Shown: piece after piece, positions 5,617-20,783 of the stretch
Position numbering within the stretch: the stretch's first letter is position 1
How the letters are laid out: each line of letters begins with the position of its first letter
IMG/VR virus record: IMGVR_UViG_3300035438_000054
Coordinates: 1-31,824 of that record
Direction: 5' to 3' (one strand)
DNA length: 31,824 nt
Source of the DNA: a virus
Program-made: the position numbers and the translations under genes
Notes under the pieces: model-generated
Seen by the model: the letters and a program-made list of their open reading frames with translations, nothing else
What the model was told of the DNA's origin: nothing
Database searches by the model: none

Positions 5617-7833
5617 ATGGCTGTAAACGCACAAGCATACTTTTCTGCTAACCCAGACGTTGCGGCATCTTATGCAGAAAATGCCTATGGAATGACCCCT
5701 CAGCAATTTGCTGATTTCCACTATGAAAATTATGGTCGAAATGAACAGCGGTCGCCAACTGGAAGCGTTAGCAGCCAACAGATTTTAGATTTCTTAACTG
5801 CAAATCCTAATTTGACAGATGCTCAGATCGTTTCTGCTATGGAAACTTATGGGGTATCTCCTGCTCAAATGGCTCAAGCTGTTGGCTTGCCAGAGGGTCA
5901 GGTTGTTTCTAGGGTGGCGGCAGTTATCCCAGAAGGTAATGCAAAACTCCTTGGTGACACTTGGGTTCAACCTGTTTACCAAGTAACTGGTAGCGGAGAA
6001 GATCGTCAAGTTGGTGGGATTGAGAGTGTCTCAGTTTATAAAACTACTGGTGGTGTAAATGATAAGGCTACTGTTGGTACTCCAGTACAAAACTACACAT
6101 CTACTGGCGAACTTACTGGTACTTCTCAAATAACATCAAGTGGAGATACTTCATTCTTTGGTGGACTTGTAGATGCTTTGAAAGACCCAGTAGTTTTAGC
6201 CGCTTTAGGTGGTGCTGCTGCGGGTGGTCTATTAGGTGGTGCAGGTGCTGCAGGTGCGGCAGGAACTGCGGCAGGTACAGGATTGGGTACTGGTCTAACA
6301 GCAGGTGCTGGTGGTTTAGGCTTATCTACTACTGGTGCAGGTCTTGGTGCTTTGGGTACAGGTGCGGGTATTACTGCGGGAACTGGTCTTGGAACTGGTG
6401 TTTTAACTGGTTCTACATTAGGTACTTCACTTTTAGGAGCAGGTGCATTGACAGGAGCAGGAGTTCTTGGCGGCACAACTCTTGGAACGACAGGTGCGGG
6501 TGCTTCAGGTCTTGGAGCAGGTTCATCATTGGGTACTGGAATAACGGCAGGTGCTGGCGGTCTAGGTCTTAGCACCACGGGTGCGGGTTTGGGAACTTTA
6601 GGTACAGGCGCAGGAATCACAGCGGGTACAGGATTAACTGGCACTGGTGTTTTAACAGGATCGGGTCTTGGCTCTACTTTGCTTGGAACTGGTGCGGGTG
6701 CTTTGACGGGAACTGGAGTTCTTACAGGTTCTGGACTTGGTACAACTTTATTAGGCACAGGTGCAGGAACGGGTGTAACTGGCGGTGTAACCGGTTTAGG
6801 CGCAGGAACATTAGGAACAGGTGCATTGACAACACTTCCTACAGCAATTCCTCCAACAATACCAACAGGTCTTACTGCGGCTCAATTAGCTTCTTTGTTT
6901 TCTTCTGGTTTGACTACTGGTGCGGGTCTTCTGCAACAACAAACATCTCGTGAAGCGGCTCAACGTGCGCAACAGATGATTGATGCTGAGACTGCTGCGG
7001 CTAAACAAGCGGCTCAGTTCCGTCCTATTGGCATGACAACTCGATTTGGTACTTCACAATTCCAAGTTGATCCTAGAACTGGTCAGTTGATTAGCGCAGG
7101 TTACACACTAGACCCACAAGCAAAGAATGCTCAAGATAGATTTGTTGCTTTGGCTGAACAAGGTCTACAGCAAGCTGAAGGCGCACAAGCACAGTTTGCT
7201 CCTCTTCAAACAGGCGCACAGAACTTGTTTAACCTTGGAAACCAGTATATTGCTCAAAGTCCTCAAGATGTCGCTCAGAACTATCTCAATCAACAGATGG
7301 CTTTGTTGCAACCTGGTCGTGAATTAGAGTTGGCTAATCTGCAAAACAGACTCCAACAACAAGGTCGTGGCGGTCTTTCTGTTGCTCAAGGTGGCACTAT
7401 GGGTGCAACTACTCCTGAGTTACAGGCTTTGTTTAATGCTCGTGCTCAACAAGAGGCAGTATTAGCGGCACAAGCTCAACAAGCTGGTCAACAACAGGTT
7501 GCCTTTGGTGCAGGATTGCTTGGTCAAGGTGCTGGCGCAATGGGTCAATACTATGGTGGTCAACAAGCGGCTTATCAGCCTTACACGACTGCTTTGGGAC
7601 AAGTTCAAGGTTTGGAGCAATTAGCACAACAACCATTGCAAATGGGTGCGGCTCTTGGTCAACAAGCGGCTACAGCGGGTGCTAACGTAGGTCGTTTAGG
7701 CTTATCAGGCGCTGAGTTCAGTACTCGATTAGCTACTGGTAATGCGGCAACCACTAATCCCTATTCAACACTATTGAGTGGACTAGGTGCTTCTCCCGCA
7801 TTTGGGCAAGCATTTGGTGGCTTATTTTCTTAA
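5617..7833 (+). CDS. glycine-rich internal virion / ejection-type protein
   Basis: 738 residues. Residues 1-50 hold a 'NPDVAASYAENAYGMTPQQFADFHYENYGRNEQR' type module (seen as YFSANPDVAASY and FADFHYENYGRNEQR), found in various phage and surface proteins. After a linker, residues ~190-430 are a long Gly/Thr/Ala/Leu tract built from GTGAG and LGTG units, with one ~40-residue block present twice. Residues ~430-738 are Gln/Ala-rich helices (AAQRAQQMIDAETAAAKQAAQF, ELELANLQNRLQQQGRGG) as in podoviral internal core proteins. It is the first of three large genes in the place of T7/P22 ejection proteins. The glycine-rich hydrophobic tract could enter a membrane. The class is inferred from position and composition. 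Confidence 0.65.
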   Translation: MAVNAQAYFSANPDVAASYAENAYGMTPQQFADFHYENYGRNEQRSPTGSVSSQQILDFLTANPNLTDAQIVSAMETYGVSPAQMAQAVGLPEGQVVSRVAAVIPEGNAKLLGDTWVQPVYQVTGSGEDRQVGGIESVSVYKTTGGVNDKATVGTPVQNYTSTGELTGTSQITSSGDTSFFGGLVDALKDPVVLAALGGAAAGGLLGGAGAAGAAGTAAGTGLGTGLTAGAGGLGLSTTGAGLGALGTGAGITAGTGLGTGVLTGSTLGTSLLGAGALTGAGVLGGTTLGTTGAGASGLGAGSSLGTGITAGAGGLGLSTTGAGLGTLGTGAGITAGTGLTGTGVLTGSGLGSTLLGTGAGALTGTGVLTGSGLGTTLLGTGAGTGVTGGVTGLGAGTLGTGALTTLPTAIPPTIPTGLTAAQLASLFSSGLTTGAGLLQQQTSREAAQRAQQMIDAETAAAKQAAQFRPIGMTTRFGTSQFQVDPRTGQLISAGYTLDPQAKNAQDRFVALAEQGLQQAEGAQAQFAPLQTGAQNLFNLGNQYIAQSPQDVAQNYLNQQMALLQPGRELELANLQNRLQQQGRGGLSVAQGGTMGATTPELQALFNARAQQEAVLAAQAQQAGQQQVAFGAGLLGQGAGAMGQYYGGQQAAYQPYTTALGQVQGLEQLAQQPLQMGAALGQQAATAGANVGRLGLSGAEFSTRLATGNAATTNPYSTLLSGLGASPAFGQAFGGLFS

Positions 7834-7842
7834 GGATTCATC

Positions 7843-9144
7843 ATGGCAGAAAATATCGTAGCGGGTTTGTTTGGGCTAACCCCTGAAATGTATGGTGAGC
7901 GTCAGAGAACAAGTGCTTTGCAAGAAGGCATTACCCTTGCCCAACTAGACCCTGCGGCTCGTGGTGCGGCAATGACGTATGCGGGTGCTAGAGGGCTTGG
8001 TAATGCTATTGGTGGTGCTTTTGGCATAGAAGACCCACAACTGAAGATGATTAGTGCTAGGAATAGTATTGCCCAACAGATAGACCAGAACAATCCTGAG
8101 TCGATTATGAAGGGTGCTCAGATGTTGTCGCAGATAGGAGATCAACAAGGTGCTATGGCTTTGGCTCAGTATGCCCGTCAAGCACAAGAGAGTATGGCTC
8201 AAACACAACAGCGTTTAGCGTCAGCAAAAGCGTCTGAAGCTCAGGCTACTCGTGAGCGCCAACAAGCAGTCCCCAAAGAAATTGTGATTGCCAATGAGAA
8301 AGCTCGGATTACAGATCAGCTTGACCAACTTCGTTTGCAAGAGACTACACCAGAGAACACTCGTGCAAGTCGCATACTTACAACACAATTAGTTGAGTTG
8401 GAAAAGTTAGATGATAAATCTAAGAAGACTGTTGTTGTTGGAAATTCTTTGGTGGATGCAACTACTGGTGTAGAAATCTATAAAGGCCCAGATACACAGA
8501 AGTATTCTGAGTTTGCTAAAACATTGATTGATGCGGGTCTGAAACCAGGCACTGAACCTTTCCAAAAACGTATGCTTGAATACGCAACTAAAAAAGTTGA
8601 GGGAGCTGGCAAAGGCACTGGTAACGTCACCATTGGTGGTATCAATGTTGATACAGGCGTTGCTTCTAAAGAGGCAAGCAAAATTATTGGTCAAAATGTA
8701 GCAAATATTGAAACTCAATTTTCATTAAAGACTGCTTTTGATGACGCTATTAAATTGGTTAATCAAGGCATTTATGGCGGTGCTTATGGGCCAGAGAAAC
8801 AGTTTTTAGCTAAATTTACAGGTATTGGTAGCCCTCAAAAGGTTGAAAATACTGAAGTATTTATGGCAAACATTGGTGAGATTGTTATTCCTCGCTTGCA
8901 ACAGTTTGGTGGTAATGACTCTAATGAAGAGTTGAAATACTTGCAAAAAGTTGTTGCTGGTGAATTACGAATGGAGCCAAAAGCAATGTTGCGAGTTCTT
9001 GAGAGTGCAGAGCGAAAAACAAGAAACAATATTGAGCGTCTTCAGAAGCAAACATCTGGCAAGCCAGGAGAAGCATTGCCAACAACACCAATGAATGCGC
9101 CTCTAGGTTCGCCACAAAACCCAATCAAGCTGAAGGACAAATAA
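7843..9144 (+). CDS. internal virion protein (probable)
   Basis: 433 residues with a start nine bases after the previous stop (AAGGATTCATCATGG). The N-terminus (NIVAGLFGLTPEMYGERQ, LDPAARGAAMTYAGARGLG, then IGGAFGIEDPQL) is an Ala/Gly-rich helical region. Residues ~75-190 are strongly helical and Gln/Ala/Glu-rich (ALAQYARQAQESMAQTQQRL), likely coiled coil. The second half has KTAFDDAIKLVNQGIYGGAYGP and NIGEIVIPRLQQFGGNDSNEE, a pattern I associate with phage proteins found beside ejection proteins. Position between two other large internal-protein candidates supports a virion core or DNA-ejection role. No enzyme motif is visible. Name inferred. Confidence 0.65.
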   Translation: MAENIVAGLFGLTPEMYGERQRTSALQEGITLAQLDPAARGAAMTYAGARGLGNAIGGAFGIEDPQLKMISARNSIAQQIDQNNPESIMKGAQMLSQIGDQQGAMALAQYARQAQESMAQTQQRLASAKASEAQATRERQQAVPKEIVIANEKARITDQLDQLRLQETTPENTRASRILTTQLVELEKLDDKSKKTVVVGNSLVDATTGVEIYKGPDTQKYSEFAKTLIDAGLKPGTEPFQKRMLEYATKKVEGAGKGTGNVTIGGINVDTGVASKEASKIIGQNVANIETQFSLKTAFDDAIKLVNQGIYGGAYGPEKQFLAKFTGIGSPQKVENTEVFMANIGEIVIPRLQQFGGNDSNEELKYLQKVVAGELRMEPKAMLRVLESAERKTRNNIERLQKQTSGKPGEALPTTPMNAPLGSPQNPIKLKDK

Positions 9145-9146
9145 TC

Positions 9147-10823
9147 ATGGCTACCATTTATGAATACAAAGGTGTGTCTTATGAGTTGCCTGATGGTTTG
9201 AGTCAAGATGATGCGTTGGCAAGAATTAAAAGTTCTTTGCAACCTGAACAGACTCAACCAGAAGCCAAAGCACCTTCCTCTGGTTTTATGATGGGTTTAA
9301 AAGACCCTATCACCGCAGGCGCACAGATGATTCCTCGTGCTTTAGGTGCAGTAGCCAGTTTAGGTGGAACTAAGCCTAATGCTTTGAGTGATATGCTTTA
9401 CAGAGAAGCAAAACGTGTAGATGAGATGGCTAAAGCTGAAGAGCAAAGTTATCAAGCACAGCGTGAAAAAGAAGGTGAATCTGGCTTTGATGTGGCTCGT
9501 TTGGGTGGCAATATCCTCAATCCCGCTAGTCTTGTGCCTGCGGCTCGTGTAGCTCAATTGGCTAGGGCTAGAGGTTTATCTAATGTTGGTCAAGCAGTGG
9601 CTGGCGGTGCTGTTGGCGGTGCTATGCAACCTGTTGTTGGTGAAGGCACATTTGAAGAGCAAAAGACTGAACAAGTTGTTTTAGGTGGAGTTACTGGCCC
9701 TATTGGTGAGAAGGTTGTTGCGGGTGCGGGTCGTGTTCTTAACCCATTAGTCTCCAAAGCAGAGCAAACAATGCGAAGCCTTGGCGTTACACCTACTACT
9801 GGTCAAACCCTTGGTGGACAATTTAAAACCATTGAAGAGTTTGCTCAGAACTTGCCTTTGATTGGCTCAAGTATTGAGAATGCTAGACAACGAGTCTTAT
9901 TTGATTTTAACAAAGGCGTAATCAACAAAGCACTACAGAAGGTTGATGACAAGTTGCCTGCTGAAGTTGTTGGTCGTGATGCCATTGCTTATGCTTCTGA
10001 TGAAGTATCTAAGAAATACGATGATGTTTTATCCAAAATGTCGTTTGATTTAGATTTTGCAACAACAAGCAATATTCTTGGTGCTTTGAGTAAATCTAAA
10101 AGTTTGTCTTCAGATCAACGACAGCAAGTTAGTGAAACATTAAATGACATTGTGTTTGGCAAGTTTTCTGGACAAAAGATTGATGGTCAGACCTACAAGG
10201 GTATTGAGTCTGATTTACGCAAGAAAGCAAGTAACTATGCCAACAGTGCTACTGCATCTGAGCGTGAGGTTGGAGACGCTTTAACTGAAGTCCTTGGTGC
10301 TATCAAGAAAGAACTTTACTTCCAGAATCCTAAACAAACATCTAAGTTGCGTAGGATTGATAGTGCTTATAGTGATTTGTCTGTCATCAATGTAGCTGCG
10401 GCTAATTCTGGTGCTGACAATGGTGTGTTTACGCCAAAACAGTTTTCTACTGCTGTTCGACAACAAGACCAGACAAGACGCAAAACATCGTTTGCCAAGG
10501 GTCGTGCTAAAGGACAGGAAATATCCGATGCGGCAGTTCAAGTTCTTGGCGACACTGCTAGATCAACCTTAGAGGGTCGTATTGCGGCTTCTGCTGTTGG
10601 TGGATTTGGATTGTTATCTCAGCCTCAAGTTGCTATTCCAGCGGTTGGTATTATTCCACCCGCCTATAGCCCTAGTGGACAGGCGGCAATTGATATGTTG
10701 TTGCGTCAACGTCCAGAATTACTACAGCGTGTAGGCGGTATGCTTTCTCAACAATCTGCCCCACTTGGATCAGTAATTGCACCAAGTGCTGTTGGACAGT
10801 ACAACCTATCTGAAAGAAGGTAA
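9147..10823 (+). CDS. DNA ejection / transfer-type virion protein
   Basis: 558 residues, starting two bases after the previous stop. The first 35 residues (YEYKGVSYELPDGLSQDDAL followed by ARIKSSL) match a short module found at the N-terminus of many virion proteins ('y.y.g..y.lP.g.s...a..~i'). Next come MGLKDPITAGAQMIPRALGAV and a Gly/Ala-rich hydrophobic part (AVAGGAVGGAMQPVVGE), then RSLGVTPTTGQTLGGQFKTIEE and helical segments with many charged residues. This order recalls phage 'DNA transfer protein' genes of podoviruses, which leave the capsid and cross the cell envelope. The stop overlaps the next ATG (TAATG). The assignment rests on layout and partial family memory. Confidence 0.65.
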   Translation: MATIYEYKGVSYELPDGLSQDDALARIKSSLQPEQTQPEAKAPSSGFMMGLKDPITAGAQMIPRALGAVASLGGTKPNALSDMLYREAKRVDEMAKAEEQSYQAQREKEGESGFDVARLGGNILNPASLVPAARVAQLARARGLSNVGQAVAGGAVGGAMQPVVGEGTFEEQKTEQVVLGGVTGPIGEKVVAGAGRVLNPLVSKAEQTMRSLGVTPTTGQTLGGQFKTIEEFAQNLPLIGSSIENARQRVLFDFNKGVINKALQKVDDKLPAEVVGRDAIAYASDEVSKKYDDVLSKMSFDLDFATTSNILGALSKSKSLSSDQRQQVSETLNDIVFGKFSGQKIDGQTYKGIESDLRKKASNYANSATASEREVGDALTEVLGAIKKELYFQNPKQTSKLRRIDSAYSDLSVINVAAANSGADNGVFTPKQFSTAVRQQDQTRRKTSFAKGRAKGQEISDAAVQVLGDTARSTLEGRIAASAVGGFGLLSQPQVAIPAVGIIPPAYSPSGQAAIDMLLRQRPELLQRVGGMLSQQSAPLGSVIAPSAVGQYNLSERR

Positions 10824-19550: not shown

Positions 19551-19762
19551 TGGCATACAGTAGAAAAAACATCTCTAATGCAGGAGACAGAGTTGTCCTA
19601 GAGAAAGCCGAAGCAAGGGAGATATACCGAACTTGGCAATCTCTGAGAGACAATGATTTTGTTCGTGCCAGGCTTGAGCGTTGCGAAAAGGTCTATGGAT
19701 CAGGAGCAAGAGATCGAGTCAGGTTTTATATGCGTCAAATGAAAGAAGGACAAATTGAATGA
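19550..19762 (+). CDS. 70-residue basic hypothetical protein
   Basis: ATG 19550; the product is charged and helical (AYSRKNISNAGDRVVLEKAE, AREIYRTWQSLRDNDFVRAR, then GSGARDRVRFYMRQMKEGQ). The 'l....g.~.r......m' end recurs in small phage proteins near DNA-modification genes. Its TGA (19760-19762) overlaps the ATG of the +1 frame at 19759, not the methyltransferase start, which matters for interpreting that locus. AGGG about nine bases before the start is the only ribosome-binding candidate. Function unknown. Confidence 0.62.
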   Translation: MAYSRKNISNAGDRVVLEKAEAREIYRTWQSLRDNDFVRARLERCEKVYGSGARDRVRFYMRQMKEGQIE

Positions 19763-20783
19763 GTTGGCTTTATTCGCAGGTGCTGGTGGAGGCATTCTTG
19801 GAGGACATCTCCTTGGATGGAGAACAGTCTGTGCAGTCGAGTGGGAGCAATACCCCGCAAGCGTACTGTGCGCCCGACAAAATGACGGGCTTCTCCCGCC
19901 TTTCCCGATTTGGGATGACGTTCAAACCTTTGACGGAAAGCCGTGGAGAGGAATTGTTGACGTTGTATCTGGCGGCTTTCCATGCCAAGACATCTCAGCC
20001 GCAGGGCGAGGCGCAGGGATTGATGGAGAACGAAGCGGAATGTGGGGAGAAATGGCGAGGATCATTCACGAAGTACGACCAGGTTTCGTGTTCGTGGAAA
20101 ACTCACCAATGCTCACTTCTCGGGGACTTGGACGAGTTCTCGGAGACTTGGCCGCAATGGGGTTTGATGCGAAATGGGGAGTGTTGGGAGCAGCAGACGT
20201 TGGCGCAAACCATCAGAGGGACAGAATTTGGATTGTCGCCAAACAACGAAACATTCTTTCACACGCCTTGCACAACGGGGTTGGACGGTGGCAGCAACAG
20301 CAGAAAAGCACTCAAAAAACGTCTTTTGCCAACACCAGATGCCAGTCAGAGAGGCCCTACAAAGGATTACAACCCACAAGCCAAATCTCAATCGGGGAGG
20401 ACGCTTCAATCGTTTGCGGCAAAGTTTCCGACTCCAACAACAATGGACACAATTACAAGAAGTCGAGAGAGTTATTTGCGAGTACAGAACAGACCGAGAC
20501 AAGGGAAGATGTTAACAAAATTAGCAGACATAATTCATTGGCCAACACCTCAAGCCTCGGACAATCGGGACAGGGGCAACATGAGCAACCCGTCAGTCCA
20601 GAGGCGTGTGGCAATTGGCAAGCAAATATCATTGAGTCAATCGGTTCATCCGACTTCTGGACAACTGAACCCAACGTGGGTCGAGTGGTTGATGGGATGG
20701 CCTCTAGAGTGGACAGACTTAAAGCCATTGGTAATGGACAAGTCCCCTTGTGTGCAGCAACCGCATGGAGAATCCTAAAATGA
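19755..20783 (+). CDS. DNA (cytosine-5) methyltransferase
   Basis: 342 residues from TTG 19755. C5-methyltransferase motifs are in order: motif I LFAGAGGGILGG (residues 6-17), motif IV GGFPCQ with catalytic Cys77, motif VI ENS (115-117, ENV in most families), motif VIII QRDRIWIV (154-161), and motifs IX/X ending in VDRLKAIGNGQVP (319-331). The region ~165-300 is polar and low in family signal, with ANT/SDS repeats, and would hold the target-recognition part. It would methylate phage DNA to evade host restriction; the target is unknown. No cognate restriction nuclease is obvious. A second long frame covers almost the whole gene. AAGGA lies four bases before the TTG. Confidence 0.88.
   Translation: MNELALFAGAGGGILGGHLLGWRTVCAVEWEQYPASVLCARQNDGLLPPFPIWDDVQTFDGKPWRGIVDVVSGGFPCQDISAAGRGAGIDGERSGMWGEMARIIHEVRPGFVFVENSPMLTSRGLGRVLGDLAAMGFDAKWGVLGAADVGANHQRDRIWIVAKQRNILSHALHNGVGRWQQQQKSTQKTSFANTRCQSERPYKGLQPTSQISIGEDASIVCGKVSDSNNNGHNYKKSRELFASTEQTETREDVNKISRHNSLANTSSLGQSGQGQHEQPVSPEACGNWQANIIESIGSSDFWTTEPNVGRVVDGMASRVDRLKAIGNGQVPLCAATAWRILK
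19759..20778 (+). CDS. overprinted PTP-repeat protein, +1 frame of the methyltransferase gene
   Basis: 339 codons without a stop, one base out of phase with the methyltransferase and ending five bases before it. ATG 19759 sits in ATGA with the upstream stop and has AAGGA eight bases before it, a better start than the methyltransferase's TTG. The product contains SRFGMTFKPLTESRGEELLT (49-68), SETWPQWGLMRNGECW (128-143), three aromatic/Leu-PTP motifs (LPTPDAS 190-196, FPTPTTMD 223-230, WPTPQASD 261-268) and LNPTWVEWLMGWPLEWTDL (303-321). I recall separate phage proteins with these same landmarks, usually beside or overlapping such methyltransferases and without known function. It could be a partner or specificity factor. 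Confidence 0.65.
   Translation: MSWLYSQVLVEAFLEDISLDGEQSVQSSGSNTPQAYCAPDKMTGFSRLSRFGMTFKPLTESRGEELLTLYLAAFHAKTSQPQGEAQGLMENEAECGEKWRGSFTKYDQVSCSWKTHQCSLLGDLDEFSETWPQWGLMRNGECWEQQTLAQTIRGTEFGLSPNNETFFHTPCTTGLDGGSNSRKALKKRLLPTPDASQRGPTKDYNPQAKSQSGRTLQSFAAKFPTPTTMDTITRSRESYLRVQNRPRQGKMLTKLADIIHWPTPQASDNRDRGNMSNPSVQRRVAIGKQISLSQSVHPTSGQLNPTWVEWLMGWPLEWTDLKPLVMDKSPCVQQPHGES

Follow-up and report, generated by a model that had tools for sequence, protein, structure and literature searches.

The 31,824-nt stretch of viral DNA analysed here, referred to as the window, carries a C5-cytosine methyltransferase gene (frame M) whose +1 reading frame (frame P) appears to be a second gene that supplies part of the same enzyme (Table 1). 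Comparison of homologous sequences indicates that both frames are conserved, that constraint is partitioned between them, that methyltransferase motif IX lies in P and motif X in M, and that modules of P have been swapped between loci. The locus very probably encodes a two-polypeptide C5-methyltransferase in which M is the catalytic chain and P the specificity subunit, both being required. M would contribute the catalytic core (motifs I–VIII) together with motif X, and its middle part would be a spacer kept open merely to let ribosomes get to motif X; P, whose start codon lies 4 nt past that of M and opens the +1 frame, would contribute the target-recognition modules and motif IX in trans as the predicted small DNA-reading domain of the enzyme. 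Assembly of M and P would be required for DNA methylation, which would probably shield the phage genome from host restriction, and specificity could be altered through the exchange of P-frame modules. The translation of both chains, their assembly, the methylated sequence, and the protective role are what we infer from these comparisons.

The window is a fragment of a tailed phage genome, to judge from its terminase, portal, tail, and lysis genes and from its virus record. A primosomal-protein gene and a 70-aa orphan lie upstream of M, and genes for a RusA resolvase and a PAPS-reductase-like protein lie downstream. The orphan had no match in a PHROG search, and the ATGA overlap of its end with the start of P suggests that translation of the two may be coupled. 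No restriction enzyme adjoining the M/P pair was recognised. Elsewhere in the window (5617–10823), three big ORFs (738, 433, and 558 aa) with tail genes and lysis genes on either side had no PHROG match.

Table 1. Features of the overlapping M and P frames (positions in the window).
Feature	Position	Strand	Remark
Upstream ORF, 70 aa	19550..19762	+	TGA overlaps P ATG (ATGA)
AAGGA, Shine-Dalgarno-like	19746..19750	+	8 nt upstream of P ATG, 4 nt upstream of M TTG
Frame M, putative catalytic (alpha-like) polypeptide of C5-cytosine methyltransferase, 342 aa	19755..20783	+	TTG start
Frame P (+1 of M), putative specificity (beta-like) polypeptide, 339 aa	19759..20778	+	ATG start
M catalytic core	19755..20240	+	Invariant columns in 51-sequence alignment; M constrained
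Motif I, LFAGAGGG, in M	19770-19793	+	
Motif IV, GGFPCQD, in M	19971-19991	+	
Motif VI, ENS, in M	20097-20105	+	
P segment under strong constraint (about codons 120-322), spanning the recognition region and motif IX	20116..20724	+	From 20-codon windows
Motif VIII, QRDRIWIVA, in M	20214-20240	+	
M linker, motif VIII to X	20250..20639	+	Frame-M amino-acid constraint not detectable
PTP module 1, LLPTPDASQRG, in P	20329..20337	+	
PTP module 2, FPTPTTMD, in P	20428..20436	+	
PTP module 3, WPTPQASDNRDRGNMSNPSVQRRVAIGKQISLSQSV, in P	20539..20652	+	Common to P frame of distant methyltransferase loci
Motif IX, LNPTWVEWLMGWP, in P	20665..20703	+	Aligns with IX as read in frame in single-frame methyltransferases
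Motif X, GNGQVP, in M	20730..20747	+	Invariant column block; M tightly constrained at 321-340

A sequence-only reading of this DNA had taken M for a cytosine methyltransferase, and this is borne out by matches to PF00145 (DNA_methylase; 2.9e-31, residues 4–259 only) and phrog_363 (1.4e-65), by the match of the M family profile to M.HhaI across the catalytic part (6.6e-17), and by the C5-methyltransferase motifs I, IV (PCQ), VI (ENV/ENS), VIII, and X, every one of which is present and conserved in M. Motif IX is absent from M. The start of M varies among loci: the codon may be ATG, TTG, or GTG, or the start may be shifted in either direction. The ATG of P is kept.

The +1 frame had also been described correctly as open for 339 codons and nearly co-terminal with M, the two ends being 5 nt apart. 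Its openness is indeed beyond chance, but less extreme than the figure of about 1e-7, given before allowing for codon bias, once the coding of M is considered: when the M protein was fixed and its codons were resampled, P was open in 9–20 of 14,000 trials (0.06–0.14%; mean 5.7 stops), and P codons 1–100 alone were open in 23% of such recodings. Stops in the +1 frame of close relatives, which had been named as evidence against a second gene, are absent from 78 of 80 viral contigs selected solely by similarity to M, a set in which the +2 frame contains 20.5 stops on average. The exceptions are a near-identical pair (L240 and L244) whose P frame is interrupted once, at codon 33, and for which a conserved Met at P codon 42 (97% of loci) could be an internal start. 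The P ATG was found in all 79 testable contigs of the set, and an SD-like tetramer lies 4–13 nt 5′ of it in 132 of 140 homologous loci. A search with P as the query returned at least 598 related viral contigs; the best 80 of them match M as well as P, in almost every case along the full length. P matches phrog_1008, “DNA methyltransferase” (1e-29), and has no family in Pfam; its profile found nothing credible in the PDB (best E 0.037). When each chain was modelled alone with AlphaFold, the models were poor (pLDDT 52.9 and 47.5).

The +1 product had been regarded as a partner of unknown function, with the methyltransferase motif IX within it unrecognised. When the P sequence LNPTWVEWLMGWPLEWTDL was aligned to motif IX of phage methyltransferases that have it in their single frame, hhalign gave a probability of 97.1% and an E value of 4.9e-11, and in frame M the same bases as motif IX read ...EPNVGRVVDGMA. 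Because P carries motif IX, the partner would belong to the methyltransferase itself, an arrangement for which M.EcoHK31I provides a precedent. One to several modules initiated by PTPxAxD precede motif IX in P, comparable to the recognition region of single-frame enzymes. The third module of the window is matched in Sulfitobacter phage phiGT1 (78.8%) and in a Paenibacillus plasmid (75.8%), both times in the P frame, and the methyltransferases of these two loci are only distantly related to M of the window. Among 4,491 pairs of loci whose catalytic domains share 90% identity or more, the P recognition segments are less than 30% identical in 3,464. Modules of P are thus exchanged between near-identical M, behaving like swappable target-recognition domains (TRDs).

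Rates of substitution in each frame, the comparison of which had been advised, show that P is constrained too and not the methyltransferase frame alone. Substitutions were classed by their effect in both frames, using 60 independent locus pairs and 140 different M sequences in which neither frame is broken. In these tests, which are pairwise approximations on loci with shared ancestry, the catalytic part (M codons 6–165) gave a dNN/dSN of 0.05 for M and a dNN/dNS of 0.43 for P; the middle part, containing the TRD (166–292), gave 0.056 (dNN/dNS) and 0.088 (dSN/dSS) for P and 0.91 (dNN/dSN; 0.63–1.33) and 1.42 (dNS/dSS; 0.86–2.6) for M; and the C-terminal part (293–335) gave about 0.05 for each. 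Codon positions in the middle part follow the pattern of a frame-P gene, the third position of P standing at 0.54 versus 0.35 and 0.37. As controls, neighbour genes with a virtual +1 frame gave 0.53–1.05 and 0.66–1.40, and the +1 frame of RitaG-type single-frame methyltransferases gave 0.59–0.80 and 1.27–1.66, the TRD of the latter enzymes being constrained in its own frame (0.135). M between motifs VIII and X drifts neutrally, and the target-recognition region is selected in P. At the resolution of 20-codon windows, constraint on M is strong to codon 160, loosens from there until about 300, and is tight at 321–340. P is already constrained at 121–160, where the constraint on M persists, and outside its strongly constrained part shows moderate constraint at 41–60 and 101–120 and otherwise weak constraint. 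Strong selection over the whole N-terminal half of P was therefore dropped as an interpretation, since constraint in that half is concentrated at codons 41–60 and 101–160. The proposal of a dual-coded pair of about 1 kb is strongly supported by these rate tests together with the open P frame of the relatives.

Relatives with an altered frame topology bear on the role of the middle part of M. Motif X is in the P frame in loci from Paraburkholderia (L286), a Spirochaetia MAG (L305), and a Kiritimatiellae MAG (L329), in which stops fill the M frame past motif VIII and P is open through the recognition region, IX, and X. The stops in M where X is in the P frame imply that the middle of M is kept open elsewhere solely for reaching motif X, and the openness of P at the same places implies that P is independent of the M middle. 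In two viral contigs (L035, 3001–4494; L038, 3001–4290), an HNH endonuclease frame inserted between motifs IX and X shifts motif X into the P frame, turning an EcoHK31I-like layout into an AquI-like one. In Arthrobacter phage Chickaboom (L002), the methyltransferase is annotated as two genes, 41 and 42, the second being in the P frame with the recognition region, IX, and X; its reading frame continues upstream over gene 41, so the annotated start may be too late. A frameshift in a Gallionella MAG (L304) disrupts both frames in the catalytic region, which would be due to either a pseudogene or an assembly error.

If P were untranslated, its open frame would be a by-product of the codon use of M or of shared ancestry. 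The recoding result lends something to this idea because, given the coding of M, openness at a single locus is weaker evidence than 1e-7 had implied, but the P-frame constraint seen in dN/dS-type tests against neutral controls and the loci where P is open and M has stops make it extremely improbable. P could instead be overprinted on M without being related to its function, for example as a methyltransferase inhibitor or an anti-restriction protein, with M a complete enzyme by itself, and the empty Pfam search and the absence of any P homologue with an assigned tested function would agree with that. This reading is, however, very unlikely, because motif IX, missing from M, sits in P, the recognition region of M is without selection, the recognition modules of P differ between near-identical M, and a C5-methyltransferase accompanies every judgeable P. 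Among the roles previously suggested for P, that of a specificity factor is thus the favoured one, and those of inhibitor and anti-restriction protein are without support.

Programmed frameshifting is another conceivable explanation: ribosomes would translate M as far as codon 160 or so, move by +1 into P for the recognition part and motif IX, and then shift back for motif X to yield one chimaeric chain, and the selected frames in the order M, P, M do spell a complete canonical methyltransferase. We nevertheless consider it unlikely because a conserved ATG preceded by SD-like sequences belongs to P itself, the constraint on P at 121–160 begins before that on M ends, and the window would need two shifts per protein, the second of which is needless in relatives where motif X is already in the P frame. 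The model of two separate chains also has points counted against it: P codons 1–40 and 61–100 are weakly constrained despite the position of the P start beside that of M, and the literature places the predicted TRD of M.EcoHK31I on the large subunit, opposite to the selection observed here.

The landmarks of P had been taken for those of free-standing phage proteins, and homologues encoded apart from a methyltransferase had been suggested as a check. No free-standing P was found among 334 fetched loci bearing P motif IX, a number that includes overlapping fetches of the same contigs and gives prevalence as an “at least” figure. The catalytic domain lies in the −1 frame in 326 of them, and the other 8, which are not judgeable, are hits within ~420 nt of the start of contigs that are truncated and so lack the upstream catalytic part. 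This attribution is therefore not upheld, as every judgeable P homologue overlaps a methyltransferase. In phage and plasmid records L248, L252, and L257, only P is annotated, as “hypothetical protein,” and the overlapping catalytic methyltransferase has been missed; P would appear free-standing in such records. Culturable phages with the pair include Pseudomonas phPA-G, Vibrio 1.236.O, and Acinetobacter ABMM1. All 80 relatives listed from bacterial and archaeal assemblies, mostly of Gammaproteobacteria, have the catalytic domain over P in the −1 frame. Two distant families likewise have PTP modules and motif IX in +1, the phage C72C1 type and the Lacticaseibacillus phage R9.1 type, for which the +1 frame of the TRD gave 0.095/0.17 and 0.137/0.107, respectively, the latter with M relaxed; in both, +1 constraint sets in part of the way along the frame, which for the C72C1 type is near codon 100. 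Among ordinary methyltransferases sampled from 40 of these genomes, motif IX is in frame at the 13 loci where the motif pattern could find it and in +1 at none, and the 3 dual-type loci fetched in the same sampling have it solely in +1. Two Pseudomonas genomes (L589 and L591) carry another clade (QVELNP...NAQYFGVPQ) whose +1 frame contains, as judged by eye, a motif-IX-like stretch, SERLKMMGFASDW, and dual coding may thus have arisen independently in this clade too.

Split, complementing C5-methyltransferases are established (PMC3404938). M.EcoHK31I (YGGCCR) has motifs I–VIII and X on its large chain, where its TRD is also predicted to lie, and motif IX on its small chain, and M.AquI (CYCGRG) is split in the variable region ahead of motif IX, so that one chain carries I–VIII and the other the distal recognition region and IX (PMC3404938). 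Likened by motif layout alone, the window corresponds to M.EcoHK31I, with I–VIII and X in M and IX in P. The small chain of M.EcoHK31I has 176 aa and is encoded within the large-chain gene in a different frame; P is likewise in the +1 frame inside the M gene, and its constrained part of ~200 residues is near that length. P differs, however, in beginning beside the M start and covering the whole gene (339 aa), and selection on the recognition region of the window acts in P, with M neutral there; that of M.EcoHK31I is predicted on the large chain. The window type is, in addition, phage-borne and modular, occurs in hundreds of contigs, and has no restriction enzyme recognised alongside. Because the large-chain TRD of M.EcoHK31I is a prediction in the literature, the window is classed as a variant of that system and not as a plain member. 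M.EcoHK31I is the closest precedent; the scale, the phage setting, the adjoining starts, and the placing of recognition in P opposite a neutral linker of M appear to be new, and literature searches found no description of a phage overlap of this kind. The five relatives described above with motif X on the P side (L286, L305, L329, L035, and L038) share the topology of M.AquI, in contrast with the window, in which motif X is in M and the frames overlap along their entire length. Single-frame phage C5-methyltransferases of the Mycobacterium phage RitaG type resemble the window in their PTP modules and motif IX (EWMMGWPxGW), but have all motifs in one frame, a neutral +1 frame, and a recognition region constrained in its own frame. 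The multispecific methyltransferases of Bacillus phages SPR and phi3T contain several recognition modules per enzyme, which are exchanged between phages. The repeated PTP modules suggest that the window type also has several exchangeable modules, which would lie in a second reading frame and on a separate chain, unlike those of the Bacillus phage enzymes.

To our knowledge, long same-strand overlaps with demonstrable selection on both frames are rare in DNA phages. Here at least three methyltransferase families distant from one another show dual coding, and constraint passes between frames at known domain borders. It is probable that many C5-methyltransferases of phages, prophages, and plasmids, forming a large class, carry their specificity in an overlooked +1 frame, as a swappable array on a second protein, and that their annotated variable region is a neutral spacer. 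If so, the class would be recognisable as annotated methyltransferases that lack motif IX and end in ...VGRVADGV...RVDRLKALGN, a signature because GRVADG is the frame-shadow of motif IX. Specificity prediction for such methyltransferases and their expression from a single gene would fail for want of the recognition subunit, and one of the two proteins alone is annotated in many records. Single-frame, overlapped, and AquI-like loci would together form a natural series for the splitting of an enzyme across frames. In Rhodococcus phage ReT1v-2 (L247, 2465–3139) and several RitaG-type loci, PTP modules are in +1 and motifs IX and X in the M frame, and the recognition region of actinophage enzymes may be shared by both frames.
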